From: Roseateles oligotrophus
GTDB taxonomy: Bacteria > Pseudomonadota > Gammaproteobacteria > Burkholderiales > Burkholderiaceae_C
Reading direction: 5' to 3'
DNA: 64,000 bases
Assembly (NCBI RefSeq): GCF_025717515.1
Contig: NZ_JAJIRN010000012.1
Span: forward strand, 62,001-126,000
Part shown: positions 3,171 through 38,233 of the stretch, one piece after another
Position numbering within the stretch: position 1 is the stretch's first letter
How the letters are laid out: each line of letters starts with the position of its first letter
Notes under the pieces: generated by a model
What the model was told of the DNA's origin: nothing
Database searches by the model: none
Seen by the model: only the letters and a program-made list of their open reading frames with translations
Translations under genes and position numbers: made by a program

Positions 3171-3947
3171 ATGATCAAGTTCCGTTCTGCTCGGTTGGCG
3201 CGAATATTGGTTTTGGGGCTGGGTGTCTGCCTGGCAAGTGGCGCCTCGCGGGCGCTTGATCTGACCGGTTTCAGCGAAGACCTGCCGCCGTTTGCCTACC
3301 TTGACAGCGACAAGCATCGAGGCCTGGCCAACGAGGTGCTGGACCGCATTTCGCAACGCACCGGCCTCGGCATCAAGCGAGTCAACATGCCCTGGGTGCG
3401 GGCCTTGCGCGAGGCACAGGCGGAGCCGAACAGCCTGCTTTACGTGACGGTGCGCACGCCCGAACGCGAGCCGCAATTTCTATGGGTGGGGCCGCTCGAC
3501 AAATGCGACATCGTGCTGATGAAACTGCGGCGGCGCGCCGAGCTGAAGTTCGACCCGGGGCAGGCCGCCGCGCCTTTGCAAATCGGCGTCGGCCGAGGTT
3601 CGCCTTCGGCTCAACTCTTGCGCGATGCCGGTGTCCCCGAGACCGTGATCTACCAGACGCCGCGCAGTGAAATCGGCGTGCGCATGCTGTTTGCAGAGCG
3701 TCTCGACATGCTCGCCGGCCTGCTCTTGCCCAGCTTGTTCCAGGTCCAACGCCATGGCTTCGACCCGGCCGAATTGCAGGCTTTTCACCTGTTGAAGCCG
3801 GGCTATGGTTGCTACTTCGCCTTCAATCCCAAGGTCGACGCGCAGCTATTGACGCAATTCCGCAAGGGTTTTGACGAGCTGCAAAGCTCGGGCGAATTGC
3901 AGGCTTTGCGCGAGCAATATTTGCGCAATCCCGAGCAGACGCGATGA
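3171..3947 (+). CDS. Periplasmic solute-binding protein (SBP_bac_3 type)
   Basis: Protein of 258 residues: signal peptide (LARILVLGLGVCLASGASRA), then the amino-acid-binding type periplasmic fold beginning GFSEDLPPFAYLD with GLANEVLDRISQRTG. The family usually feeds polar amino-acid ABC importers, but no permease or ATPase adjoins, so it may be a stand-alone binding or sensory protein, as is common in Burkholderiales. The ATG at 3171 was preferred over a TTG seven codons upstream because it directly precedes the basic N-region of the signal peptide. The ligand cannot be inferred. Confidence 0.75.
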   Translation: MIKFRSARLARILVLGLGVCLASGASRALDLTGFSEDLPPFAYLDSDKHRGLANEVLDRISQRTGLGIKRVNMPWVRALREAQAEPNSLLYVTVRTPEREPQFLWVGPLDKCDIVLMKLRRRAELKFDPGQAAAPLQIGVGRGSPSAQLLRDAGVPETVIYQTPRSEIGVRMLFAERLDMLAGLLLPSLFQVQRHGFDPAELQAFHLLKPGYGCYFAFNPKVDAQLLTQFRKGFDELQSSGELQALREQYLRNPEQTR

Positions 3948-4082
3948 AGTGATTTTGACAATCCCAGTCTGCCCTTTCGACGCTCTGTACCTTCTGCCGT
4001 GCAATTGGTCGAATCTCACTGGGCCGGGGGCAGCGAGGCTTATACATTGGCTCCACTCTGTTTGAATGGATGCGAGCCCGCC

Positions 4083-4673
4083 ATGAAGCCCAAGCAACAC
4101 CCCGCCAATCACCCCATCTCCTCTGGCCTTGCCGCGCTGGGCTTCGGTCTGGCGATGTTGGCGGCTGCGCCCCTGGCCCAGGCCACGGAGATCAACGCTG
4201 CGCTGTCCGTCTCCGACGACGGCAAGCCCGGCCGCAGCCAAGAACTGGCGCGCTTGAAGGAGATTGGCTTGCCGGCCTATCCGGGCGCCATTGCGCGGTC
4301 CGATGACAGGAACGACAAGTCGGGGGTGTCGCTGGGCCTGTCTTTCGGCCCTTTTGGGTTCAAGTTGCAGGTCTCCAAATACGGCATCACGGACGGCATC
4401 GACAGCATCAGCAACTACTACCGTGAGGCCTTGAGCCAATATGGCCCCGTGCTCGACTGCAGCGTCGGCAGCCCGGCGGCGCTGGCGTCCAAAAACGAGA
4501 AAAAGGCCAAGGAGCCGAAAGACGACCGGCTTGGCTGCAATGAAATCAGCGCCTCCGTCAGTGAACGGGTCTACAAGGTCGGCAGCAGCAAGAACTTCCG
4601 CCTGGTCAGCCTGAAGCAAGAGGGGCCTGAAGTGCACTTTCAACTGGTGCGACTGGAACTGCGCGGCATGTGA
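4083..4673 (+). CDS. Secreted protein of unknown function
   Basis: Protein of 196 residues. The first 35 or so form a typical signal peptide (basic start, hydrophobic core LAALGFGLAMLAAAPLAQA). The mature part starts with LKEIGLPAYPGAIARSDDRNDKSGVSLGLSFGPFGFKLQVSKY, resembling small periplasmic proteins that carry a YPGA segment, and contains a pair of cysteines (LDCSVG and LGCNE) that could form a disulfide. I do not recognise the family. The ATG at 4083 is chosen because it starts the signal peptide; the open frame extends upstream without plausible coding sequence. It stands between a solute-binding protein and a small minus-strand gene. Confidence 0.65.
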   Translation: MKPKQHPANHPISSGLAALGFGLAMLAAAPLAQATEINAALSVSDDGKPGRSQELARLKEIGLPAYPGAIARSDDRNDKSGVSLGLSFGPFGFKLQVSKYGITDGIDSISNYYREALSQYGPVLDCSVGSPAALASKNEKKAKEPKDDRLGCNEISASVSERVYKVGSSKNFRLVSLKQEGPEVHFQLVRLELRGM

Positions 4674-4709
4674 GCCCCCCGCGGCTAGCCTTGATCAGAG
4701 CCGCCTATT

Positions 4710-4895
4710 TCAAGCGTTAGCTGGCCCGACCTCGAAGCCCATCAGCACGCTGGCCAGCTCCAGCGAGCGCCATAAATGCGGCGGCATTTCCATGATTTTC
4801 TCGGGCGTTCTGGCGCGCGTGGCCCAGCTCAGGATTTCGAAGTGCTGATCCGGCGTCAGCAGCTTCTTGGCGAGCATTTCGTTCAAGGTTCGCAT
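4710..4895 (-). CDS. Small hypothetical protein (61 aa)
   Basis: A 61-residue reading frame starting MRTLNEMLAKKLLTPDQHF. The ATG is preceded at good distance by a strong Shine-Dalgarno (GGAGGAGC on the minus strand), the main reason to believe it is translated. The sequence is a mix of amphipathic helices without signal peptide or membrane segment (MPPHLWRSLELASVLMGFEV near the C-terminus). It lies downstream of, and on the same strand as, the response regulator gene. No function can be assigned. Confidence 0.5.
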   Translation of the reverse strand: MRTLNEMLAKKLLTPDQHFEILSWATRARTPEKIMEMPPHLWRSLELASVLMGFEVGPANA

Positions 4896-5044
4896 GATCA
4901 AAGCTCCTCCTTGGGCGAGGGCGGACAGCAAAAAGGCATCCGCTCATAGGCCTAAATATCTCATGAATCGAGGCCCGAACTTGCGCCTAAAACCTCACAA
5001 AGCGCCACAACGGCGCGGCCGGAGGCAGAACGAAGCAGGGATCA

Positions 5045-5734
5045 TCAGCTTGGCTGCCCGCGCGGCTCCGTGCGTCTATCGATCACATAACCGACATTCC
5101 TGACGGTTCTGACATAGCCTTCGCCCAACTTCTTGCGCAAATTGGAAATTTGCACGTCCAGCACATTGCTGGCGCGACCCACCACGCTTGAGCCGATCTG
5201 CTCCTCCAGCACACGGCGGGTCTGCACCCGGTCGGCGCGGGTCGCCAGCGCACTGAGCAGCAGGTACTCGCTGCGCGACAGCTCTAGCGGCCGGCCGTTG
5301 AGGCTGGCGCGCTGAGCGCCGAGGTTCAGACTCAGGCCACGCAGATCCAGGCACTCGGTATCCGCGCCAAAGCTGCGGCAACCCAGCGCGCGTAGGCGAG
5401 CCCGCAGTTCGGCGGGCGCAAAGGGCTTGAGCAAGAAGTCGTGGGCCGCATTCCCATCGGCGCCGAAGAGCCGGCTGTCGCCTAGAAGATCCAATGTCGT
5501 CAGATTCAGCACCGGCGTTCTGGGCCAATCACGACGCATGCGCTGCAGCAAGCTATGCCCCGCATCGTCGGCCAGGCCCAGGTCCAGCAATACCAGGTCA
5601 ATGCCGCCACCTTCAAGTTGACTCAGGGCGCTTGTGAGCTGGCGAACCCAGGTAACCCGGTATCCGTAGTCCGCGAGTTCGCTTCGCAGTTGGTGGGCGA
5701 GTTCAAGTTGATCTTCAAACAGCAAGACGTTCAT
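5045..5734 (-). CDS. OmpR/PhoB-family response regulator (orphan)
   Basis: A 229-residue two-domain regulator. The receiver domain occupies residues 1-115, with acidic pocket residues Glu7/Asp8, phosphoacceptor Asp51 in LVLLDLGL and the conserved Lys in FLLKPFAP. The C-terminal winged helix (about 130-225) has the typical LSRSEYLLLSALATRADRVQTRR and VLDVQISNLRKKLGEG. No histidine kinase gene is adjacent, so its partner is encoded elsewhere. The ATG at 5734 is chosen; a TTG four codons upstream is less likely. It is divergent from the TonB-dependent receptor gene, and direct repeats in the shared intergenic region could be its binding site. Confidence 0.9.
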   Translation of the reverse strand: MNVLLFEDQLELAHQLRSELADYGYRVTWVRQLTSALSQLEGGGIDLVLLDLGLADDAGHSLLQRMRRDWPRTPVLNLTTLDLLGDSRLFGADGNAAHDFLLKPFAPAELRARLRALGCRSFGADTECLDLRGLSLNLGAQRASLNGRPLELSRSEYLLLSALATRADRVQTRRVLEEQIGSSVVGRASNVLDVQISNLRKKLGEGYVRTVRNVGYVIDRRTEPRGQPS

Positions 5735-5849
5735 GCCAGCATTCAATACCGAGACGATGGCAAAAATCGAAAGTCATGAGCCGCTTGGCGGCTGGTGTTC
5801 CGGGCCCCGACAAAATCCGTCTGGTCTCGGCGTTCTGATACCGATCAAA

Positions 5850-5868
5850 TTTGGCGTTCTGCGCCAAA
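5850..5868. promoter_or_regulatory. 7-bp perfect dyad, possible operator
   Basis: TTTGGCG, a 5-base centre TTCTG, then CGCCAAA: a perfect dyad of 7-bp arms. The word GGCGTTCTG also occurs 24 bp upstream at 5829. It sits nearer the regulator gene than the receptor gene. There is no T-tract, so an operator is more plausible than a terminator. Which protein would bind is unknown. Confidence 0.35.
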
Positions 5869-5920
5869 CGCAGCGGGTGATTTGTTGGCTACAGGCCACG
5901 CAAGTCCGGCCAATTTTCCC

Positions 5921-5962
5921 TGCATTTAGCTGCCATTTAAATTCTCTGGGGTTGCCATTTAA
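5921..5962 (+). promoter_or_regulatory. Direct repeats TGCCATTTAA, candidate response-regulator boxes
   Basis: TGCCATTTAA occurs at 5931-5940 and again at 5953-5962, exactly 22 bp (two helical turns) apart; a diverged copy TGCATTTAGC abuts at 5921-5930. Direct repeats on one face of the helix are the usual binding architecture of OmpR/PhoB-type regulators, one of which is encoded divergently at 5734. Confidence 0.4.
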
Positions 5963-6139
5963 CTTGCGGTGGAAGAGTGATTTCACTGCCCCAAAAAGAG
6001 CCGCGCCGCAGATTGAAAGTCCGTTGCAAGGCCACAACGCAGTGCTGGAAAGGCGGCAACAAGCCGCCGATCAAACCCAGGCCCGAAGCCAAACCCAGGT
6101 ATTCGGGCAACCCATGCAATATGTATCGAGGAGATGTTC

Positions 6140-8758
6140 GTGAAGAAGACCCATATCAGCCTGGCCGTGGCCTTGTTGGCCGCGTTCAGCGTGCAAGCTC
6201 AGGCGCAACAGCAATTGGACCGTGTCGAAGTGACCGGCTCAGCGATCAAGCGTATCGATGGTGAAACCGCCAACCCGGTCACCGTCATCAAGATGAGCGA
6301 CTTGAAGAACGAAGGCGTCACTTCGGTGGAGCAAATGCTCAGCCGGATTTCGGCCAGCCAGACCACCCAAAGCGGCAGCCAGGCCGTCGGCTCGGCCACC
6401 GGTGGTGCGACCTTCGCCAATTTGCGCGGCCTCGGCCAAGACAAGACGCTGGTGCTCTTGAATGGCCGGCGCATCGCCAACAACGCGCTCGACGCGACCG
6501 CACCCGATCTGAACATGATCCCGTTCGCGGCGATCGAACGTGTTGAAGTGTTGCGTGACGGCGCCTCGGCGCTGTACGGCACCGACGCGATCGGCGGCGT
6601 CATCAACTTCATCACCAAGAAGAGCTTCACCGGCGGCACCCTCACGCTGGGCCTGGACTCACCGCAAAAGGAAGGCGCCAAGTCGAAGAACTTCAACCTC
6701 GGCGGCGGCTACGGTGATCTGGCCAAGGACAAGTTCAACATATTTGCCGTGTTTGATTACAGCCAGCAAGATCCGCTCAACGCCGGTCAGCGCCCCTATG
6801 TCAACCGCGGCACGCCCAAGACTTCGGCGACGCCGTTCCCGGCCAACTATTACCAGAACGACGACAGCGCCAACCCGGCAGCGCCAGGCTGTGCCTCGCC
6901 GATGCTGGTGTCCGACGGTGCCGTCGGGTGCAAATACCTGTACTCCCGCGTGGTCGATCTGGTGCCCGAAACCAAGCGCCTGTCGGGCTTGGCCAAGGCC
7001 AGCGTGCAACTGAGCGACGATCACCTGCTGAGCTTCGAGTATTTCCGCGCCGAGAACACCAACAAGACCGTGATCGCCGGCGTGCCTTACGGCGCCTTGA
7101 GCATGGACCCCGGCACCAAGTACTACCCAGGCAAAGGCATCACGCCGGCCGCGCCGGCCTCGGCCAAGATCGACGCCAAGCTGCCCATCACCGTCAAGAT
7201 GCGGGATGAAATCAGCGGCGGCCGCGCCGACGAAAGTGTCAATACACAGCAGCGCTTTGTCGCGAATCTGGAAGGCACCCTGGCCGGCTGGGACTACCAA
7301 ACCGGCCTGGCCTACAACGAGAACGAGATCATCAACAAATTGATCGGCGGCTATACCGACGGCGCGCAAATCACGGCCGGCGTCAAGACCGGTGTGATCA
7401 ACCCGTTCGGGCCCCAAGACGCTGCAGGCAAAGCCGTGTTTGAAAAGGCAGCGGTCCGCGGCACGCTCTACACCGGCCTGGGCAAGGTCACATCGCTGGA
7501 CTTGAAGGCGAGCCGCGAACTCGGCAATTGGCTGGGTGCCGGCAACGCCGGTCTGGCCTTGGGCACCGAGTACCGCAAGGAAGATTTCACCAACAAGGCC
7601 AATACCGAGTTTGCCGAGAAGGTCGTGGCCAGCACCGGCTATGACCCGACGATCAACAACCATGGCACACGCAATGTCAGCGCGGTCTATGGTGAAGTCT
7701 CGCTGCCGGTGCTGGCGGGCCTGGAGTTGGGCGCTGCCTTGCGGCACGATCGCTATAGCGATTCGGGCAGCACCACCAATCCGAAGTTCACATTCCGCTA
7801 CCAGCCCAATAAACAGATGCTGATGCGCGGCTCCTACTCGACCGGCTTCCGGGCGCCCTCCTTGTATGAGCTGAATGCGCCGCAGACTTACACCAACACG
7901 GGCAATAACCACGATGATCCGGTGCGTTGCCCGGGCGGCAAGCCGATCCCCGGCGCGCCCAAGGCGGCCAACTGCGACCAGCAGTTCCAGTCCCTCGGCG
8001 GCGGCAACCCCAATCTCAAACCCGAGACCTCGGTCAACAAGACCCTGGGCTTTGTGTTCGAGCCCATGGTGGACGCCAGCGTGGGTCTGGACTTCTGGTG
8101 GATCAGCTACGAGCACAAGATCGACGTGCTGCCGGAGAACGCGGTGTTCGCCGACCCGGTCAAGTACGCGAGCCTGTTCAAGCGTGCCGCCGACGGCACC
8201 CTGGCCACAGACGGCTCGCTCTGCCCCGGTGTGAAATGCGGTTATGTCGAACTGCTGACCAAGAATCTGGGCGGTGTCCGGACCAATGGCGTTGACCTGA
8301 CGGCCAACTACCGCCTGCGCACCGCCGCGCTGGGCACCTTCAGTGCCGGCCTGAATGGCACCTACGTCAACAAGTACGAGTATCAGAACGAAGAGAACGG
8401 TGCCTGGATTCAACGTGCCGGCACCTACAGCGGCAACAACGGCCCGATCTTCCGCTGGTCACAGTCCTTGAGCCTGGGCTGGAAGCATGGCGACTTTGGT
8501 CTCGGCCTGGTGAACCGCTACAAGACCGGCTACACGGATGAAGATCCAAAGCACAAGGTCGACAGCTATTCGATCTGGGATATGTACGGCACCTGGGCGC
8601 CGATCAAGTCGGTCTCGCTGACCGCCGGCGTGCGCAACCTGCTCAACCAGGATCCGCCGTTCTCCAACCAGACGCGCACCTTCCAGACCGGCTTTGATCC
8701 ACGCTTTGCCGATCCGGTCGGCCGCGTGTTCTACGCTCGCGCGGGCTACACCTTCTGA
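6140..8758 (+). CDS. TonB-dependent outer-membrane receptor
   Basis: About 872 residues. The signal peptide is MKKTHISLAVALLAAFSVQAQA; the plug domain follows (LDRVEVTGSAIKRIDGETANPVTVIKMSDL, then the plug signature VEVLRDGASALYGTDAIGGVINFITKK), then the beta-barrel with the NLKPETS motif, ending in a C-terminal strand that finishes in Phe (VFYARAGYTF). It imports a large substrate using TonB energy; the ligand could be an oligosaccharide, peptide or siderophore. GTG at 6140 was chosen because GAGGAG sits 6 nt upstream; the in-frame ATG at 6134 abuts that ribosome-binding site, leaving no spacing. Followed by a strong terminator. Confidence 0.92.
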   Translation: MKKTHISLAVALLAAFSVQAQAQQQLDRVEVTGSAIKRIDGETANPVTVIKMSDLKNEGVTSVEQMLSRISASQTTQSGSQAVGSATGGATFANLRGLGQDKTLVLLNGRRIANNALDATAPDLNMIPFAAIERVEVLRDGASALYGTDAIGGVINFITKKSFTGGTLTLGLDSPQKEGAKSKNFNLGGGYGDLAKDKFNIFAVFDYSQQDPLNAGQRPYVNRGTPKTSATPFPANYYQNDDSANPAAPGCASPMLVSDGAVGCKYLYSRVVDLVPETKRLSGLAKASVQLSDDHLLSFEYFRAENTNKTVIAGVPYGALSMDPGTKYYPGKGITPAAPASAKIDAKLPITVKMRDEISGGRADESVNTQQRFVANLEGTLAGWDYQTGLAYNENEIINKLIGGYTDGAQITAGVKTGVINPFGPQDAAGKAVFEKAAVRGTLYTGLGKVTSLDLKASRELGNWLGAGNAGLALGTEYRKEDFTNKANTEFAEKVVASTGYDPTINNHGTRNVSAVYGEVSLPVLAGLELGAALRHDRYSDSGSTTNPKFTFRYQPNKQMLMRGSYSTGFRAPSLYELNAPQTYTNTGNNHDDPVRCPGGKPIPGAPKAANCDQQFQSLGGGNPNLKPETSVNKTLGFVFEPMVDASVGLDFWWISYEHKIDVLPENAVFADPVKYASLFKRAADGTLATDGSLCPGVKCGYVELLTKNLGGVRTNGVDLTANYRLRTAALGTFSAGLNGTYVNKYEYQNEENGAWIQRAGTYSGNNGPIFRWSQSLSLGWKHGDFGLGLVNRYKTGYTDEDPKHKVDSYSIWDMYGTWAPIKSVSLTAGVRNLLNQDPPFSNQTRTFQTGFDPRFADPVGRVFYARAGYTF

Positions 8759-31338: not shown

Positions 31339-32022
31339 ATGCACTCATATCTCTTGCGCGCGGCTACAGCCGCCACGGTGATTTTTCTGACGGCCTGCGG
31401 TGGCGGAGGCAGCGCCGACGATGGTTATCGCCCGCCGCCGCCCTTGCCGGTGCCGACGCCCAACCCCAACCCCTACCCGAATACCTATAGCTGCAGCAAC
31501 GAAGGCCTGATCAAGTCGGCGCTGAGCAGCTTGCCGACGGTCTGCATGTTGACCAGCAGCGGCGAGATCGTCTTCGAGCTGTACTCGGACACCGTCCCCA
31601 ACACCGTCAACAACTTCCTGCGCTATGTGGCCGATGGCGCCTACAAGAACACCTTGTTCCACCGCGTTGACCGCGACTTCGTCATCCAGGGCGGCGGTTT
31701 CACCAGCGGCATGGTCGAGCGTCCGCCCGCCTATGCGCCGATCCCGCTGGAGGCGCGCGAATACAACCTGCCCGGCACGATCGCGATGGCCCACCGCAGC
31801 GACCCCAACAGCGCGACCAATCAGTTCTTCATCAACGTGAAGGACAATAAGGACTTGGATTACCAGTCCGCAGCAAAACCGGGTTATGCGGTGTTCGGTC
31901 GGGTGATCTCGGGCATGGCCACCGTGGAGGCAATCAATGCGGTGCCCGTTTATGTCTATAGCGAAGCCGACCTGCGGCCAAGGCAAGAGGTATTGATCTA
32001 TTGGGTGCAGCGACTGAAGTAA
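31339..32022 (+). CDS. Cyclophilin-type peptidyl-prolyl isomerase, lipoprotein
   Basis: A 227-residue protein: lipoprotein signal ending FLTAC, Gly/Ser linker, proline-rich spacer (PPPPLPVPTPNPNPYPN), then a cyclophilin domain: FELYSDTVPNTVNNFLRYV, FHRVDRDFVIQGGGF, GTIAMAHRSDPNSATNQFFINVKDN. The catalytic Arg of FHRV and the QFFI stretch are present. GGAG lies 8 nt before the ATG at 31339. Two cysteines in YSC and TVC may pair. Its 3' end overlaps the start of the next membrane protein gene by 22 nt. Confidence 0.92.
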   Translation: MHSYLLRAATAATVIFLTACGGGGSADDGYRPPPPLPVPTPNPNPYPNTYSCSNEGLIKSALSSLPTVCMLTSSGEIVFELYSDTVPNTVNNFLRYVADGAYKNTLFHRVDRDFVIQGGGFTSGMVERPPAYAPIPLEAREYNLPGTIAMAHRSDPNSATNQFFINVKDNKDLDYQSAAKPGYAVFGRVISGMATVEAINAVPVYVYSEADLRPRQEVLIYWVQRLK

Positions 32023-33146
32023 ATCGGCTTCCCGTTCAGGCCCGTCCGCTCGGCCTGTTAGCGCTGCGCCTGCGTTGGAGCGCCGCCGAACTGAAGGCGC
32101 TGCTGCGCCGCTGGGGCGCTTTCATCGGCGTGGTGGCGGCCGTCTTGGGCCAGTTCTTTGCAACCTTGATCGGCTGGCCGGCGCTGCCCTTGTTCTGGGC
32201 CAGCCAGCAGGCTTGGCCGGTGGCGGCTTGGGTGCTGCTATTGCATGCGCTGCCCGGGCTCTTGCTGTGCTGGGGTTTGCGCGAGCAGCTGTTACCGGCC
32301 CATTGGCTGGACGCCGAGCGAGCATTGCCGCTGCGGCGGCGCCAATTACTGACCGCCGATCTGGCCGTGATCACGCTGGCCTTGTTGCCGCTGGCGCTGC
32401 TCTATCTGATCTCGGTTGGCGCCTGGCTTTATGCCGACCCGGCCTGGATGCGCGGCCTGTGGCCGGCCGCGCTGGCGAACTTTGCGATTTCTCTGGCGCT
32501 CTCGGTGCTCGGCGCGGCGGCGCTGATGCAGGCTAGGCGCAGGCCACGCCAGGCCGCGAGCGCGGCGCCGCATCGCCCATCGCCAAGCACTTCGCCAAGC
32601 GCGTCGGCAAGGACGCAGCATTCCTTCGGCCGCAACTGGGTCTTGCTGGGCCTGCCCTTGTGGCGCGGCCCGGCGCGGCCGGTCATGCATTTGCTGCTGC
32701 TCGCCTGCCTGGCCTTGGCCGCTTGCTTGTCGGCGGCCTGGCGCTGGCCGCAGCAGGCGTCCTGGGCGCTGGCCGCCTACACCTTGCTGGCGATGGGCCT
32801 GAGCGCGCGCCTGCATGCGCAGGCCACGCGCTGCTATGCGCCCATCGAGCAGGCCTGCGCAGCGCTGCCCTTGGCGCCCAAGTTCTGGTCGCGGCGCCTT
32901 ATGCTGCTGGCGCTGACTCCGGCCTTGCTGGCCTGGTTTGGGCTGGCTTTGCTGCTCTTGCTCGGGCCCTGGCAACTGGCACCTCTGGCGGCACCGCTCT
33001 TCATGGCCTATGGTCTGCTCGCTCCCGCCCTGCCTTTGTTGGCGGACAAGGGCGGCAGCCCCGAATCCCACGCCGGTCGCTGGCTCTTGGGCTGGGCGCT
33101 CTGGGTCGCCTTGGCCAGTGAAGCGTTGCTGGCCATGCCCTCTTGA
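32001..33146 (+). CDS. Multi-pass membrane protein, probable ABC exporter permease
   Basis: A 381-residue, very hydrophobic protein with around eight predicted membrane helices (for example WGAFIGVVAAVLGQFFATLIGW, LAVITLALLPLALLYLISVGAW, LLLLACLALAACLSAAW) and a basic Pro/Ser/Ala loop near residues 180-215. I recognise no family domain, but it is immediately followed by an ABC ATPase gene (stop at 33146, ATG at 33155), so it is best read as that ATPase's membrane partner. The TTG start at 32001 overlaps the cyclophilin gene; the exact start is uncertain. Confidence 0.6.
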   Translation: MGAATEVNRLPVQARPLGLLALRLRWSAAELKALLRRWGAFIGVVAAVLGQFFATLIGWPALPLFWASQQAWPVAAWVLLLHALPGLLLCWGLREQLLPAHWLDAERALPLRRRQLLTADLAVITLALLPLALLYLISVGAWLYADPAWMRGLWPAALANFAISLALSVLGAAALMQARRRPRQAASAAPHRPSPSTSPSASARTQHSFGRNWVLLGLPLWRGPARPVMHLLLLACLALAACLSAAWRWPQQASWALAAYTLLAMGLSARLHAQATRCYAPIEQACAALPLAPKFWSRRLMLLALTPALLAWFGLALLLLLGPWQLAPLAAPLFMAYGLLAPALPLLADKGGSPESHAGRWLLGWALWVALASEALLAMPS

Positions 33147-33154
33147 AAATCAAT

Positions 33155-33778
33155 ATGTCCGATTCCATTTTCTTGCACACCGAGTCTCTCAGTTATGCCT
33201 ACAGCGGCAGCAGCCGGCGCGTGGTCGATCTGTGGAGCCAGAGCTTCGAGCCGGGCCTGGTCTGGCTGCGCGGGCCCAATGGCAGCGGCAAGTCAACAAG
33301 GCTCAAGCTCTTGGCCGGCATGCTGCAGCCGCAGTACGGCAGTGCTCGCTTAGGCGGCATCGACCTGATGCGCCAGCCGCTTGAGTACCGCCGCCTAGTC
33401 GGCTTTGTAGGCGCCGAGCCACCGCCCTTCGAGCATCTGAGTCCGGCCGAGCGCTTTGGCTTTCTGAGCGGGCTCTACCCGCACGCGGATGTCGACCGCT
33501 GGCGCGAGCATGTCGACGGGTTCGGTCTGCGGCCATTTCTGAACCAGCCGCTGCGCGAGCTCTCCACCGGCACGCAGCACAAAGCGGCCTTGGCTGCGGC
33601 GCTGGCCCTCAACACGCCCTTGCTGCTCTTGGATGAACCGCTGAATGCGCTCGATGCGGTGTCGCTGGCGCATCTGCGAGGGGTGTTGGGCGAAGCGGCG
33701 TTGCGGCGGGATCGACTGGCGCTGGTGGTCAGTCATGAAGCATTGGGGCTTGAACCCAGTGCTTGCCTGGAGCTGTAG
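33155..33778 (+). CDS. ABC transporter ATP-binding protein
   Basis: A 207-residue, single-NBD protein of the size of CcmA/NatA-like ATPases. Walker A is GPNGSGKST, the Q-loop region is GFVGAEPPPFE, the signature is LSTGTQHK (degenerate LSGGQ), Walker B is LLLLDEPLNALD, and the H-loop is VVSHE. The ATG at 33155 was chosen over a TTG four codons upstream. It pairs with the preceding membrane protein; cargo unknown. The NBD is compact, with little sequence beyond the H-loop. Confidence 0.85.
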   Translation: MSDSIFLHTESLSYAYSGSSRRVVDLWSQSFEPGLVWLRGPNGSGKSTRLKLLAGMLQPQYGSARLGGIDLMRQPLEYRRLVGFVGAEPPPFEHLSPAERFGFLSGLYPHADVDRWREHVDGFGLRPFLNQPLRELSTGTQHKAALAAALALNTPLLLLDEPLNALDAVSLAHLRGVLGEAALRRDRLALVVSHEALGLEPSACLEL

Positions 33779-33862: not shown

Positions 33863-33892
33863 GGAACGCGGGACGGCCCGCCGGCATCTAAT
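33863..33892 (+). promoter_or_regulatory. Putative ECF sigma promoter P1 (autoregulatory)
   Basis: GGAACGC, 15 nt, then CATCTAAT, ending 20 nt before the sigma-factor ATG. The -35-like AAC core fits ECF promoters. The same two blocks with the same 15-nt spacing recur at 34679-34708 ahead of the ferritin-like gene, which strongly suggests that the sigma factor reads both. Confidence 0.7.
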
Positions 33893-33912
33893 GGGCTGAA
33901 CCTCCCACGCCT

Positions 33913-34635
33913 ATGCCAACAAATCAGCCCTTCCCCACCGGCAGCAGTCTCAGCGTTGAATCAAGCGTTGACAGCCCAGACAGCGTCTTGATCAGCCTCT
34001 CTCTGAGCGGCGACGAGAAGGCGTTTGCGCTGATCATGCGGCGCTACAACCGCCTGCTTTTTCGCACCGCGCGCAGCATTTTGAAAAACGACGATGACAC
34101 CCAAGACGCCGTGCAAGAGGCCTATTTGCGCGCCTGGCGTGCCCTGGCCAGCTTTCGCGCCGACGCCAAGCTATCGACCTGGTTGGTGCGCATCGCGGCC
34201 AACGAGGCGCTCGGCCGCTTGCGCCAGACCGGCGCGCAGGTTTGGCCTCTGAACGCGACATTCGATAGCGACGGCGAATCCCTGGAGGTTCAAATGGAAG
34301 CCAATCCCGACGAACAACCGGAAGCGACGACGATGCGCGGCCAGCTGCGCCGGCAAATCGAAGCCCGCATCGACAGCCTGCCCGACCAGTTCCGCACCGT
34401 CTTCATGCTCAGAGGCGTGGAGGAGCTGAGCGTCGAGGAAGTGGCCGAGGTCCTGGAGATCCCCGAGGCCACCGTTCGCTCGCGCTTCTTCAGGGCCCGC
34501 GGCTTGTTGCGCGAAGGCTTGGCCCGCGACACCGATATGGCCGTCGCCGATGCGTTCTCGTTTGCCGGCCCACGCTGCGACAAGATCGTGGCCGGTGTGT
34601 TGGCGGCGATTGCCCGTGAGCGCGCGAGCCGCTGA
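33913..34635 (+). CDS. ECF-type RNA polymerase sigma factor
   Basis: A 240-residue sigma factor. Region 2 is visible (AFALIMRRYNRLLFRTARSILKNDDDTQDAVQEAYLRAWRALASFRADAKLSTWLVRIAANEALGRLR), as is region 4 (LPDQFRTVFMLRGVEELSVEEVAEVLEIPEATVRSRFFRARGLLRE). A C-terminal tail with FAGPRCDKIVAGVL follows region 4 and has one cysteine. No anti-sigma gene is adjacent, so control may lie in the tail, elsewhere in the genome, or in autoregulation from P1. Downstream on the same strand come the ferritin-like, cytochrome c, rubredoxin and reductase genes. The leader lacks an obvious Shine-Dalgarno. Confidence 0.9.
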   Translation: MPTNQPFPTGSSLSVESSVDSPDSVLISLSLSGDEKAFALIMRRYNRLLFRTARSILKNDDDTQDAVQEAYLRAWRALASFRADAKLSTWLVRIAANEALGRLRQTGAQVWPLNATFDSDGESLEVQMEANPDEQPEATTMRGQLRRQIEARIDSLPDQFRTVFMLRGVEELSVEEVAEVLEIPEATVRSRFFRARGLLREGLARDTDMAVADAFSFAGPRCDKIVAGVLAAIARERASR

Positions 34636-34678
34636 CTGTCCGCCCGCCCTATTTTTTTCAAACTATTTGCAAATAGCC

Positions 34679-34708
34679 GGAACGCAGCCGCGATGGCCCG
34701 CATCTAAG
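34679..34708 (+). promoter_or_regulatory. Putative ECF sigma promoter P2 (ferritin-like operon)
   Basis: GGAACGC, 15 nt, then CATCTAAG; matches P1 at 33863 in both blocks and in spacing, while the spacer itself differs. The -10 block ends 78 nt before the ATG of the ferritin-like gene. The spacer does share GGCCCG near its 3' side with P1. Confidence 0.7.
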
Positions 34709-34786
34709 AAAGCATGAGCGCAAGACGAGTCGGCAAAGCCGCTCAACGTCTTGGCCATGCTTCCTTTGACCCACCGGAGATTTGCA

Positions 34787-35359
34787 ATGTCGTTTTTCAA
34801 AATGCCCACACCCGTTGCCGCACGCCGGCTCTTTCTCGGCCGCTCGGGCGGTCTGGTCTTGTCCGGTGCCGCCGTGGCCTTGCTGGCCGGCAAGGACGGC
34901 CTGGCCGCGCAATCGGGCGCCGCCAGCACGGGCGATGTGCAGATCCTGAATACCGCCATCGCGGCCGAGCTGGAAGCGATCGCCGCCTACCAATTGGGTG
35001 CCGAAAGCGGCCTGCTGAGCAAGCCGGTGCTGGAGCTGGCGCTGAGCTTTCAAGGCCATCACAAAGAGCATGTGGCCCTGCTGGCCAGCACGGTCGAGAA
35101 GCTCGGCGGCAAGGCGGTGGTGGCCAAGGCCAAGTACATGTTTCCGGTCGAGAACCTGAAGTCACAACTCGACGTGCTCAAGTTCGCTGCGCAGCTGGAG
35201 CAAGGTGCCGTCAGCGCCTATCTGGGCGCGGTGCCGCTGTTCGGTAACCGCGATCTGGCCAAGGCAGCCGCCAGCATCCTGGGCGACGAAGCGATGCACT
35301 GGGCGATCCTGCGCCAAGCAATTGGCGAGGTGCCGGTGCCCTCGGCCTTCATGTCATGA
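34787..35359 (+). CDS. Tat-exported ferritin-like domain protein
   Basis: A 190-residue protein. The N-terminus VAARRLFLGRSGGLVLSGAAVALLAG looks like a twin-arginine signal (RRLFL). The mature part is a four-helix ferritin-like domain (Ferritin_2 type) with carboxylate/His positions in NTAIAAELEAIAAYQLG, FQGHHKEHVALL, AQLEQGAVSAYLG and LGDEAMHWAILRQ, suggesting a diiron or other metal centre. Tat export fits a folded metalloprotein. It overlaps the cytochrome c gene by 4 nt (ATGA) and is preceded by the P2 motif. Catalytic role unknown; peroxide or oxygen reduction is an inference. Confidence 0.85.
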   Translation: MSFFKMPTPVAARRLFLGRSGGLVLSGAAVALLAGKDGLAAQSGAASTGDVQILNTAIAAELEAIAAYQLGAESGLLSKPVLELALSFQGHHKEHVALLASTVEKLGGKAVVAKAKYMFPVENLKSQLDVLKFAAQLEQGAVSAYLGAVPLFGNRDLAKAAASILGDEAMHWAILRQAIGEVPVPSAFMS

Positions 35360-35775
35360 GCGCCGGGCGTATAGGCCTAACTCGCAAGCTGCTGGTGATC
35401 TGCTGCGTGGCGCTAAGCGCAGCCAGCCCGCCAACGCAGGCTGCACCGGACGTCGTACGCGGCGAGCAACTCTACGGCCGCTGCATTGCCTGCCATGCGA
35501 TGGCGACGGACCGGGTCGGCCCCCGCCACTGCGGTCTGCTGGGCCGGCGCGCCGGCAGCGTGGCGGATTTCGAGTACTCGGCGGCGATGAAGAAGTCAAA
35601 CATCGTCTGGGACGAGAAGGCGCTTGATCTGTTCCTGAAAAAACCGCTCGCCATGCTGCCCGGCAGCAGCATGACTTATGACGGCGTGCCCGAGGCACGC
35701 GACCGCGCCGACCTGATCGCCTATCTGAAGTCGGCCAATAGCGACGCGGCCTGCCGCAATCTGAAGAGCAAGTAA
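35356..35775 (+). CDS. Periplasmic class I cytochrome c
   Basis: A 139-residue protein with signal peptide (KLLVICCVALSAASPPTQAA) and a single haem site CIACH (Cys43, Cys46, His47). VGPRHCGLLGRRAGSV and FEYSAAMKKSNIVWDEKALDLFLKKP follow the pattern of small mitochondrial-type cytochromes c, with a Met ligand in the PLAMLPGSSMTYDG stretch. Two further cysteines (RHC, AAC) may pair. The overlapping start with the ferritin-like gene implies coupled translation and a shared electron-transfer role in the periplasm. Confidence 0.9.
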   Translation: MSAGRIGLTRKLLVICCVALSAASPPTQAAPDVVRGEQLYGRCIACHAMATDRVGPRHCGLLGRRAGSVADFEYSAAMKKSNIVWDEKALDLFLKKPLAMLPGSSMTYDGVPEARDRADLIAYLKSANSDAACRNLKSK

Positions 35776-35834
35776 CAATCGGCTCGGCGCCTGCTTGGGT
35801 CGAGCTACCTCACCCTACCTACGGACACATCCCC

Positions 35835-35999
35835 ATGAAAACCTATCAATGCACTGTTTGCGGCCATATCTATGACGAAGCCGCCGGCGCGCCCGCCGAA
35901 GGCTTGGCCGCCGGCACGCTGTGGGCCGACGTGCCCGACAGCTGGGTCTGCCCCGAATGCGGCGTGGCCAAGACCGATTTCGACATGGTCGAGATCTGA
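35835..35999 (+). CDS. Rubredoxin
   Basis: A short gene of 54 residues starting MKTYQCTVCGHIYDEAAG. The four iron ligands are in two CxxC pairs, Cys6/Cys9 and Cys39/Cys42 (VCPECG), with the conserved W of the PDSWVCPECG stretch. This is a standard one-iron rubredoxin, a small cytosolic electron carrier. It lies 1 nt before the rubredoxin reductase gene and 59 nt behind the cytochrome c gene, clearly the same operon. Confidence 0.97.
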   Translation: MKTYQCTVCGHIYDEAAGAPAEGLAAGTLWADVPDSWVCPECGVAKTDFDMVEI

Positions 36000-36000
36000 G

Positions 36001-37158
36001 ATGGCGCCCGTCATCATCATCGGCGCTGGCCTGGCCGGCTGGACCACCGCGCGCGAGTTCCGCAAGCTGGACGCCACGACGCCGCTGATGTTGATCAGCG
36101 CCGACAACGCCGACTTCTACGCCAAGCCTTCGCTGTCCAACGCGCTCACGCAAGGCCGCACGCCCGAGCGCTTGGTCACCACGCCGGCCGCCAAGATGGC
36201 CGAGCAGCAAAACCTGACCCTCTTGGCGCACACGCGGGTGACGGCGATCGACGCGCAGGCGCACCGCATCAGCACCTCGGCGGGGCAGTTCGAATACAGC
36301 CGCCTGGTGCTGGCCACCGGCGCGCAACCGATCCGCCTGCCGCTGGACGGCGACGCCAGCGCAGAGGTGCTGGCGATCAATTCGTTGGCCGACTTCGCGC
36401 GCTTTCATGCCCGGTTGAATGGCGCCGATCCGGCCCACAAAAAGAGCGTGCTGATCATGGGCGCCGGCCTGATCGGTTGCGAGTTTGCCAACGACCTGGC
36501 CGCCGCCGGCCACCCGGTGACGGTGGTGGACCCCTCGACGGGCCCGATCTCGGGCTTGCTGCCCGCGGCGGCCGGCGCGCAAATTCGCGCGGCCTTGGCC
36601 GGCCTCGGCGTGGTCTGGCATTTCGGCGCGACGGTCAAGGCCGTCAATCTGGTCGCCGGGAGCGATGGGCTACAAGTCGAACTCTCAAACGGGCAGCGCT
36701 GCGGCGCCAACATCGTGCTGAGCGCGATCGGCCTGCGCGCCGACATAGCGCTGGCCCAAGCCGCCGGCATCGCCTGCGACCGCGCCATCTTGGTAGACCC
36801 TTACCTGCAGACCAGCAGCCCAGACATTTACGCGCTCGGCGACGGCGCCCAATACGCCAGCGCCGGCAGCCGCGCCCTGCCCTTCGTGATGCCCATCATG
36901 ACGGCGGCCAAGGCCTTGGCGGCGACGCTGGCCGGCCAAGCCACGGAGTTGGTGTTCCCGCTGATGCCGGTCGGCATCAAAACGCCGGCGCTGCCCACCG
37001 TGGTGGCGGCGCCCGCACCCGGTACCGTCGGTGATTGGTGTCAGGTCGAGGACGGGTTGTGGCAGTTCATTGACGCCGCCGGACTGAATCGCGGCTTCGT
37101 CCTGACCGGCGCGCAGACCGCGCGGCGCATGGAGCAGGCCAAGTTGGTCCGGCCCTGA
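36001..37158 (+). CDS. Rubredoxin--NAD(P)+ reductase (FAD-dependent)
   Basis: A 385-residue pyridine nucleotide-disulfide oxidoreductase-type flavoprotein. FAD site VIIIGAGLAGWTTAREFRKLD, the YAKPSLSNAL segment, NAD(P) site VLIMGAGLIGCEFANDLAAAGHPVTVVDPS and second FAD motif IYALGDGAQY are present; the layout matches RubB/AlkT reductases. It should pass electrons from NAD(P)H to the adjacent rubredoxin. The ATG directly follows the rubredoxin stop. It closes the operon that starts at the P2 promoter. Confidence 0.93.
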   Translation: MAPVIIIGAGLAGWTTAREFRKLDATTPLMLISADNADFYAKPSLSNALTQGRTPERLVTTPAAKMAEQQNLTLLAHTRVTAIDAQAHRISTSAGQFEYSRLVLATGAQPIRLPLDGDASAEVLAINSLADFARFHARLNGADPAHKKSVLIMGAGLIGCEFANDLAAAGHPVTVVDPSTGPISGLLPAAAGAQIRAALAGLGVVWHFGATVKAVNLVAGSDGLQVELSNGQRCGANIVLSAIGLRADIALAQAAGIACDRAILVDPYLQTSSPDIYALGDGAQYASAGSRALPFVMPIMTAAKALAATLAGQATELVFPLMPVGIKTPALPTVVAAPAPGTVGDWCQVEDGLWQFIDAAGLNRGFVLTGAQTARRMEQAKLVRP

Positions 37159-37555
37159 AACCTGCCCTCCCAAGCCTCGGCCCTCTCCGCCGCGGTGCCG
37201 GCCGGCGCTGGCCGAGCGACCCTGATCGACTACCCGCCGGATATCCGAAAAGTGATTTGCACGACCAAGGCGATTAAGTCGGTCAACATGCGCCTGCGCA
37301 AAATCACCAAGACCCGAGGCTCGTTGCTAACGGATGAAGCGGCATTCAAACTGTTCTATCTGGCGCTGAACAATATCAGCCAGAAGTGGACTTTGCCGAT
37401 TCGAGACTGGAAGGCCGCGTCGGACCTAACGCCGTTTGCACAAAATCCGGGACATCCTCACGGCCCCAGGCAATCAAGGGGCCTTGACTCAAGACATCGG
37501 TCGCTTTGGCCCCTAGACTTCAACGCCTTAACTTCACTGCACGAGGGAACTGTTG
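37159..37555. other. 397-bp intergenic region with transposase relic
   Basis: No intact gene. It contains the IS256-type transposase remnant (37228-37420). The rest shows no recognisable structure apart from a presumed promoter for the PEP-CTERM gene and its Shine-Dalgarno near 37543. Confidence 0.6.
37228..37420 (+). pseudogene. IS256-family (mutator) transposase remnant
   Basis: One frame encodes DYPPDIRKVICTTKAIKSVN, then MRLRKITKTRGSLLTDEAAFKLFYLALNNISQKWTLP and IRDWKAA. This matches the C-terminal part of IS256-family transposases (typically ...PPEIRRVIYTTNAIESLN..., LRKV-KTRG, DEAA-KLLYLAL, KW--PVRDWKAAL). Both the N-terminal catalytic region and the last residues are gone, and no terminal inverted repeats are obvious, so it is a decayed fragment. 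Confidence 0.75.
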
Positions 37556-38233
37556 ATGAAATCCTTTGTTTCGCTGGCCTGCACGATGGTGCTGACAGCC
37601 ACATCCATGATGAGCTCCGCCCATGCGGGCGCCGTGCTCGGTTTTGCCTCGGGCAATAACTGCTCAGGCAACCAAGAAGGCACCGACGAGATCCGCTCGT
37701 GCCTCTATGGTGGTTTCATTCACCAAAACTATGGCGACACGGCGGGCGTCGACGTGCAATACCAGGATACGACCTTCGGCTGGGAGCGCAGTCTCTCGTG
37801 GTGGGGCACCGGCTACGGCGGCGCCAATGGCGTCTTGTGGAGCGGCGAAAGCGATACAAATTCCAGTGCCCGCATCATCCTGAAGGCCATCGCAGGCCAC
37901 AGCATCAGTCTTGAAGGCCTGGGGCTGGCTTCCTACCTGGACGGTGTCGGCACCTGGCTGCAAGTGCATGAGCTGGACAGCAATGTGAACCTGATGGATG
38001 AGGCAGTTTCGGTGAACATCACCACCGGCACGCAGGTCGACTTCAACTCGCTCAGCTCCAGCAAAGGCTGGGTGATCGAGTGGAAGAACTCGTCGTATGA
38101 CATCGGCCTGAGCCAATTGACGTTCAATGTCGCCGATGCCCCGAGCCAAGCGGTGCCCGAACCCGCCAGCCTGGCCTTGGTAGGCCTCGGCCTGGCCGCT
38201 GCGGCGTTTGGCCGGCGGCGCCAAAAGAGCTGA
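37556..38233 (+). CDS. PEP-CTERM sorting domain protein
   Basis: A 225-residue exported protein: signal peptide (SLACTMVLTATSMMSSAHA), a beta-rich body with one early Cys pair (NNCSGNQEGTDEIRSC), and the C-terminal tag VPEPASLALVGLGLAAAAFGRRR, the standard PEP-CTERM motif, helix and basic tail. It is a predicted exosortase substrate; body function unknown. GAGGGA lies about 7 nt before the ATG at 37556. Second such protein in the window (the other ends at 20458); their bodies are unrelated by eye. Confidence 0.88.
   Translation: MKSFVSLACTMVLTATSMMSSAHAGAVLGFASGNNCSGNQEGTDEIRSCLYGGFIHQNYGDTAGVDVQYQDTTFGWERSLSWWGTGYGGANGVLWSGESDTNSSARIILKAIAGHSISLEGLGLASYLDGVGTWLQVHELDSNVNLMDEAVSVNITTGTQVDFNSLSSSKGWVIEWKNSSYDIGLSQLTFNVADAPSQAVPEPASLALVGLGLAAAAFGRRRQKS

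Follow-up and report, generated by a model that had tools for sequence, protein, structure and literature searches.

The DNA analyzed here, called the window, is a 64,000 nucleotide stretch from Roseateles oligotrophus (NCBI RefSeq assembly GCF_025717515.1, contig NZ_JAJIRN010000012.1, positions 62,001 to 126,000 of the forward strand). Within it we assessed a run of five genes encoding an extracytoplasmic function (ECF) sigma factor, a ferritin-like protein, a cytochrome c, a rubredoxin and a rubredoxin reductase. Comparison with related loci suggested that this is likely an autoregulated module of the ECF29 type, in which the sigma factor would drive its own gene together with an exported ferritin-like/cytochrome c pair and would be switched through its own C-terminal tail. 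The composition is a variant of the ECF29 kind, with regulation that is well supported by comparison and a function that we infer. Gene order and layout, all on the + strand, were as described in an earlier reading made from the letters and open reading frames (the sequence-only reading), and the features are as follows.

33863..33891, + strand: putative sigma-gene promoter, GGAACGC-N15-CATCTAA, wider form GGGAACGC...GCATCTAATG (pattern match)
33913..34635, + strand: ECF29-like sigma factor, 240 residues (NF008888/PRK11922 equivalog)
34561..34590, + strand: C-terminal tail motif F-x-G-x-R-C-D, residues 217-226, a candidate sensor, with the sole cysteine C222 at codon 34576-34578 (alignment, AlphaFold2 tail helix)
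34679..34707, + strand: putative ferritin-like operon promoter, GGAACGC-N15-CATCTAA (pattern match)
34787..35359, + strand: ferritin-like protein (PF13668, Ferritin_2), predicted Tat (twin-arginine translocation) export and four-helix bundle, candidate ligands E61, H92, H95, E138, E168 and H171
35356..35775, + strand: exported class I cytochrome c (CIACH) with additional conserved cysteines C59 and C133
35835..35999, + strand: rubredoxin, no export signal, accessory member (domain match)
36001..37158, + strand: rubredoxin reductase-like flavoprotein with a C-terminal rubredoxin-binding domain, accessory member (domain match)

The ferritin-like and cytochrome c genes overlap by ATGA, the gap between cytochrome c and rubredoxin is 59 nucleotides and that between rubredoxin and reductase is 1 nucleotide. 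A promoter and terminator scan of the locus found no sigma-70-like site and, on the + strand, no terminator-like site before 37624.

The sequence-only reading had reported a twin motif with the same spacing upstream of the sigma and ferritin-like genes, and GGAACGC-N15-CATCTAA was present at both sites on the + strand. Its starts (33863 and 34679) were correct while its ends were one base too long, the true ends being 33891 and 34707. The two exact copies lie 816 bp apart, both are intergenic and each precedes a gene, the first by 21 bases (sigma) and the second by 79 bases (ferritin-like). Two matches were found in the window against 0 expected from window shuffles, and in the genome the exact letters and spacing occurred only at 33863 and 34679.

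Motif conservation was measured in related loci, taken as the best 80 of 317 confirmed ferritin-like relatives from a scan of genome contigs, many of them metagenome assemblies; the counts therefore describe close relatives. Sites were scored as GGAAC-N17-CATCYA with at most 1 mismatch over 11 positions. The sigma upstream region was extended by up to 60 bases beyond the estimated start and upstream regions shorter than 120 bp were left out, so that the counts cover 72 of the 74 sigma genes and 79 of the 80 ferritin-like genes. Near-matches lay upstream of 67 of the 72 testable sigma genes and of 22 of the 79 ferritin-like genes, and 75 of the 80 loci had at least one, compared to a background of 36 near-matches in 1,788,821 positions (0.0034 per region). 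The loci without a site were L058, L063, L102, L107 and L108. L063 was untestable, L102 was testable only upstream of the ferritin-like gene, L107 carries both sites with two mismatches each, and in L108 a perfect site precedes a shortened sigma frame whose position the script had got wrong, so that only L058 was left without one. Across 89 distinct sites both boxes were sharply conserved and the spacer was variable; the -10 box extended to CATCYAATG, and CATCCAA was more frequent than CATCTAA. The sigma gene lies directly upstream of the ferritin-like gene in the same direction in 71 loci, and 13 of these had a second site with gaps of 50 to 917 bases. In the remaining 58 the gaps were mostly short, some up to 122, and a second promoter thus tends to accompany a wide gap between the two genes. 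Judged by this conservation, the motif is very probably a real promoter.

The sites were also kept where the genes had separated. In genome G020 about 0.66 Mb separates the sigma gene from the ferritin-like/cytochrome c pair and both units keep the site, and in G366 the ferritin-like and sigma genes are on separate contigs, each with a perfect site. L041 was not counted as a further unlinked case because G366 seems to be the same genome. The sequence-only reading had tied its regulon to linkage of the sigma gene and the cluster; the two were unlinked in G020 and G366, yet each gene kept its own site. Its proposal that the sigma factor activates itself and the ferritin-like operon is supported by these conserved promoters, including where the genes are unlinked. 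In the two loci with a divergent sigma gene (L088 and L099) a site was present upstream of the ferritin-like gene in both, and upstream of the sigma gene one was found in L099 and none was listed in L088.

Co-occurrence was assessed in a family sample of 120 genomes from 115 genera. A close ferritin-like protein (at least 66% identical, a cut chosen after inspection of the table) was present in 12 of the 120 genomes, this one included. The sigma factor scored above its cut-off in all 12, adjacent in 10, as compared to 8 of the 108 others (Fisher p 1.2e-11, for genomes that are not independent). With a looser cut that took all 27 ferritin-like matches at 1e-30 the sigma factor was found in 15 of 27 genomes compared to 5 of 93. 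In a class-wide sample the sigma factor was above the cut-off in 9 of 281 genomes with a clear score gap (241.7 vs 178.2 bits for the next), and a ferritin-like gene was beside it in 6 of the 9, this one included. The other eight loci comprised five in which the sigma gene has a ferritin-like neighbor (59-63% identical), two of these with the cytochrome c gene between, and three (L124, L128 and L132) with no ferritin-like gene within about 1.5 kb of the sigma gene.

Gene content of the 80 related loci separated a conserved core from accessory genes. Sigma, ferritin-like and cytochrome c genes in one direction were found in 61 loci, and one more (L031) had this core plus rubredoxin and reductase. 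The sigma gene was divergent in 2, and it was present with no cytochrome c match in 8, with 1 further locus ending at that point. Cytochrome c was present with no sigma gene nearby in 4, L041 had cytochrome c and reductase with no sigma gene nearby, L059 had neither cytochrome c nor sigma, and L063 ends before the sigma position. The core is therefore the sigma factor, the ferritin-like protein and, usually, the cytochrome c, and the rubredoxin and reductase are a local elaboration. The gene order put forward by the sequence-only reading was thus usually kept in relatives for its first three genes and rarely for its last two. A single conserved chain of four downstream genes did not survive this comparison, as rubredoxin and reductase occurred together in 1 of 80 loci and the reductase alone in one more. 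One conserved four-gene cargo was rejected on the same counts, since just one of the 80 loci has a rubredoxin and two have a reductase.

The sigma factor scored 297 bits against the NF008888 (PRK11922) equivalog (cut-off 204) and Sinorhizobium meliloti RpoE8 scored 323 bits. A tree placed the two on one side with support of 88/91, although 10 of its 28 inner branches were starred and it carried one long row and one long-branch warning. By this shared equivalog and tree side the sigma factor belongs with RpoE8 (ECF29), the reference for the group, and is not a new kind. The other ECF29 features were found as well. The first site reads GGGAACGC...GCATCTAA and the second CGGAACGC...GCATCTAA, no anti-sigma gene was recognizable among the adjacent genes of the window, and about 35 residues extend past region 4 with a GxRC motif shared with RpoE8. 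PMC6180224 assigns RpoE8 to ECF29 and gives the motif as -35 GGGAAC and -10 GCATCCAA, with one of two mapped rpoE8 transcript starts at the motif and a near-perfect second copy upstream of SMb20593. The same paper states that no anti-sigma candidate is known for RpoE8/ECF29, that its authors know of no ECF29 sigma factor studied in detail and that RpoE8 regulation remains a mystery. In PMC8999054, ECF29 is listed under 'Others' among the groups with regulatory extensions.

The sequence-only reading had regarded the composition as without precedent, but the S. meliloti locus has the same kind of sigma factor, motif and twin layout, with DUF4142 and a small electron carrier. RpoE8 (SMb20592) shares with the window sigma factor the equivalog, the GGGAAC -35 box, the tail GxRC and the lack of a known anti-sigma, and in the S. 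meliloti sequence one site precedes the sigma gene and a second precedes the gene that follows it, as in the window. The two sigma factors are about 43% identical and the S. meliloti spacer is one base shorter. The S. meliloti cargo is DUF4142 (SMb20593) and amicyanin, a cupredoxin neighbor, whereas the window has Ferritin_2 and cytochrome c, and no rubredoxin pair was seen alongside rpoE8, unlike in the window. DUF4142 adjoins the same kind of sigma factor in Mesorhizobium, Methylosinus, Paraburkholderia and Caballeronia records and is not limited to one class; it is termed ferritin-like and putatively periplasmic in PMC11317620. In the open-access literature we recognized no paper on this operon.

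The ferritin-like protein matched Ferritin_2 (PF13668) at 121.6 bits, above the curated cut-off of 24.7, and was predicted to form a four-helix bundle with a mean predicted local distance difference test (pLDDT) of 76. In a 46-row alignment the twin-arginine residues R13 and R14 were invariant columns and all six candidate ligands were invariant in 46 of 46 rows, but these rows are 71-86% identical to the window protein and their invariance is weak evidence. The six ligands were also kept in three relatives about 40-52% identical, as read by eye. Canonical di-iron ferritin-like ligands are E, ExxH, E, ExxH. This site was not found, as H92xxH95 in the second helix replaces ExxH in 46 of 46 rows, predicting an atypical di-metal site (E/HxxH/E/ExxH) with His for the usual Glu. 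The nearest fold neighbors were Rv2844 (2ib0), with a template modelling (TM) score by target length of 0.83-0.88, and tardigrade RvY_06210 (8w9k, 8wai and 8kce), with a TM-score by target length of 0.43-0.45 and a sequence-profile match as well. Both are 22-26% identical to the ferritin-like protein, and some of its candidate ligands are missing from the RvY_06210 sequence alignment. Kinship with the tardigrade manganese-dependent peroxidase g12777 was considered and rejected because the PDB match is RvY_06210, a name missing from the main text of PMC9145152 as far as that text was available. All 70 relatives of the cytochrome c kept both heme cysteines and C59, and 66 of the 70 kept C133.

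These features are open to two functional readings. The ferritin-like protein could be a ferroxidase or could store or sequester metal, with the cytochrome c taking electrons from metal oxidation and not passing them to peroxide. The fold, the candidate di-metal ligands and fold neighbors that include bacterioferritin and Dps point in this direction, as does the DUF4142 family, ferritin-like in the terms of PMC11317620, next to the same kind of sigma factor in other bacteria. The replacement of one canonical Glu ligand by His speaks against it without being decisive, and we consider this explanation rather unlikely. A putative periplasmic peroxide- or oxygen-reducing pair is favored over iron storage.

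The sequence-only reading had seen no anti-sigma gene beside the sigma gene and this was confirmed, with none among the adjacent window proteins by Pfam and NCBIfam matches. No gene labelled anti-sigma was beside the sigma gene in the annotated plasmid loci; the 80 related loci were not scanned for anti-sigma domains. What signal the sigma factor responds to had been left open, and the tail cysteine offers a candidate for sensing it. In an alignment of sigma rows kept at E at or below 1e-50 this cysteine was present in 76 of 77 rows, the exception (L045) having a broken end. All 16 wider relatives have it too; H takes the place of R in three of them and F differs in one. C222 is the sole cysteine of the window sigma factor, and 40 of the 77 rows have only one cysteine (row starts are approximate). 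AlphaFold2 predicted a tail helix over residues 220-239 with a block pLDDT of 94; the structure alignment took only rows reaching residue 225 and its invariance is no independent test. The likeliest sensor would therefore be this C-terminal tail with its near-invariant cysteine. CorE-type ECF sigma factors (formerly ECF44, now ECF238) likewise have no anti-sigma and sense through a C-terminal extension with cysteines, according to PMC8999054. The likeness to the window sigma factor lies in the anti-sigma-free, cysteine-bearing extension and is a comparison of how the two may work. CorE has a cysteine-rich C-terminal domain and a CXC motif in the linker, whereas the window sigma factor has the single C222 and no cysteine in the linker.

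Two sigma frames, both from Variovorax, were irregular. In L108 (Variovorax sp. JS1663, 5551-5960) a frame of about 121 residues follows the perfect motif and much of the N-terminal half seems to be missing. In L065 (Variovorax sp. OV329, 5293-6582) the sigma frame has no stop and runs in frame into the ferritin-like gene, either a natural fusion or a sequencing artefact, and its alignment row reads on accordingly.

If the sigma factor were controlled solely by its amount through another regulator, the cysteine tail would be structural. Such control holds for some anti-sigma-free ECF groups in PMC8999054 and the helix of the tail is predicted with confidence, but the cysteine recurs in relatives from the alpha-, beta- and gammaproteobacteria and is the only one in 40 of 77 rows, and we regard amount-only control as unlikely.

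Alternatively, an anti-sigma of an unrecognized kind, or one encoded elsewhere, could hold the sigma factor. Distant ferritin-like genes in L006 (G019) and L018 (an Acidithiobacillus sp. AMEEHan plasmid, 3478-5411) adjoin a different ECF sigma gene together with an anti-sigma gene, which is annotated in L018 and read from sequence only in L006; ECF control of exported ferritin-like proteins may thus have been acquired on more than one occasion. In L120 (Caballeronia sp. SBC1 plasmid, 4141-4596) a hypothetical gene that matches no Pfam family overlaps the sigma gene at its end and is a possible unrecognized partner. Against these stand the annotated plasmid loci and the statement in PMC6180224 that none is known for ECF29. 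We consider a hidden anti-sigma quite improbable.

GGAAC-type -35 boxes are often common to ECF sigma factors, but that another ECF sigma factor of the cell reads these promoters while the linked one reads something else is highly improbable, as site and sigma travel together (12 of 12), unlinked copies of the two genes each retain the site and the same boxes occur in the S. meliloti type, with the spacer shorter by one base.

We thus return to the self-amplifying, tail-sensed ECF29 module. Its sigma factor would recognize GGGAAC-N17-CATCYAATG upstream of its own gene and of the ferritin-like operon, a step strongly supported by the conserved sites, and probably needs no anti-sigma partner. 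The C-terminal helical tail with its near-invariant cysteine may restrain the sigma factor and respond to a thiol-reactive signal such as an oxidant or a metal. Active sigma factor would then amplify itself and drive Tat-dependent export of the four-helix-bundle protein along with the small periplasmic cytochrome c. Most likely the bundle protein would reduce peroxide or oxygen in the periplasm and the cytochrome would donate the electrons. The rubredoxin and reductase are probably a rare cytosolic addition working separately.

Besides the close identity of the ferritin-like rows, several results weigh against this model. A cytochrome c match was missing in 9 of 80 loci despite downstream room, so it is not obligatory, and 8 of the 20 sigma-bearing family genomes lacked a close ferritin-like protein. 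In PMC6180224, overexpression of rpoE8 by 126-fold gave no detectable target despite the motif upstream of SMb20593, suggesting that the motif may not suffice or that the sigma factor requires its signal, and amcY went up after deletion of rpoE8-SMb20593. The turn preceding the tail helix was predicted with low confidence (block pLDDT 68), the atypical di-metal site is a reading of the sequence, and the titles of the nearest solved structures give no function. The genome-wide search that the sequence-only reading had proposed recovered the exact motif only at its two sites and looser forms were not above the reversed control. GGAAC-N15..20-CATCTAA gave 3 genome matches, 2 of them these sites, vs 3 for the control, and GGAAYG-N16-CATCHA gave 4 vs 3. 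The motif is therefore not enriched in the genome, matches outside the locus are no more frequent than expected by chance, and two promoters make up the evident regulon in this genome; a larger one was rejected on these counts. The weight of the motif comes from position and conservation and not from genome-wide frequency.

The locus and its relatives supply a conserved promoter, a conserved target gene, unlinked cases in which the promoter is retained and a single residue for mutation, making the switching of anti-sigma-free ECF29 factors directly testable. They also point to an uncharacterized periplasmic redox pair. Extending the comparison to the whole group, ECF29 sigma factors could possibly be one-component sensors in which the tail cysteine replaces the anti-sigma, a proposal we make tentatively. 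Under their control would be a swappable pair, with an exported metalloprotein of the four-helix-bundle type (Ferritin_2 or DUF4142) as one partner and a small electron carrier of the periplasm (cytochrome c or cupredoxin) as the other, together an undescribed periplasmic redox enzyme, with the E/HxxH/E/ExxH di-metal site in the Ferritin_2 form. If so, GTP cyclohydrolase I (FolE), CDGSH proteins and a nicotinamide adenine dinucleotide (NAD)-dependent reductase would be further targets in relatives.

Genes seen behind the motif in relatives included GTP cyclohydrolase I, CDGSH proteins, an NAD-binding oxidoreductase, a RoxA-like cytochrome c protein and DUF4142, as single observations, some at one mismatch, amid matches resembling chance. 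FolE recurred beside sigma or ferritin-like genes in L122 (2648), L041 (3687), L031 (6983-7696, between the cytochrome c and rubredoxin genes) and L034 (2573-3337), and was behind the motif in L041 and L122. Small CDGSH proteins were immediately behind an ECF29-type motif in L081 (2998, - strand) and L083 (8211, + strand). A protein of about 425 residues was behind the motif in L039 (3136), L047 (7119), L058 (2876) and L079 (7320), with a RoxA-like cytochrome c match in L039, the one tested.

The window rubredoxin and reductase share the Rubredoxin, Pyr_redox_2 and Rbx_binding domains with NorW-like rubredoxin/rubredoxin reductase pairs. Unlike those, the window pair is appended to an ECF29-type operon, and it does not reach the NCBIfam cut-offs of either NorW or RubredRD. 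Because the rubredoxin has no export signal it cannot hand electrons directly to the cytochrome. The redox chain from cytosol to periplasm that the sequence-only reading had drawn is therefore unsupported, with no membrane carrier encoded in the operon.

Among 18 genomes of the genus, the close ferritin-like protein was found only in this one and weak matches were found in five others. The GC (guanine plus cytosine) profile showed no clear step of foreign composition and no clear sign of recent arrival. An ATP-binding cassette (ABC) transporter pair lies upstream of the module (32001-33778) and was present in 9 genus relatives without the module alongside (about 1.5 kb downstream covered, about 8.6-10 kb in 5 of the 9), indicating a patchy distribution by gain or loss. 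The membrane subunit of the pair (32001-33146) had no Pfam or NCBIfam match at 1e-3 yet was kept beside the ATPase in these 9 relatives. Directly downstream of the module, 37553-38233 encodes a protein with a PEP-CTERM sorting signal.

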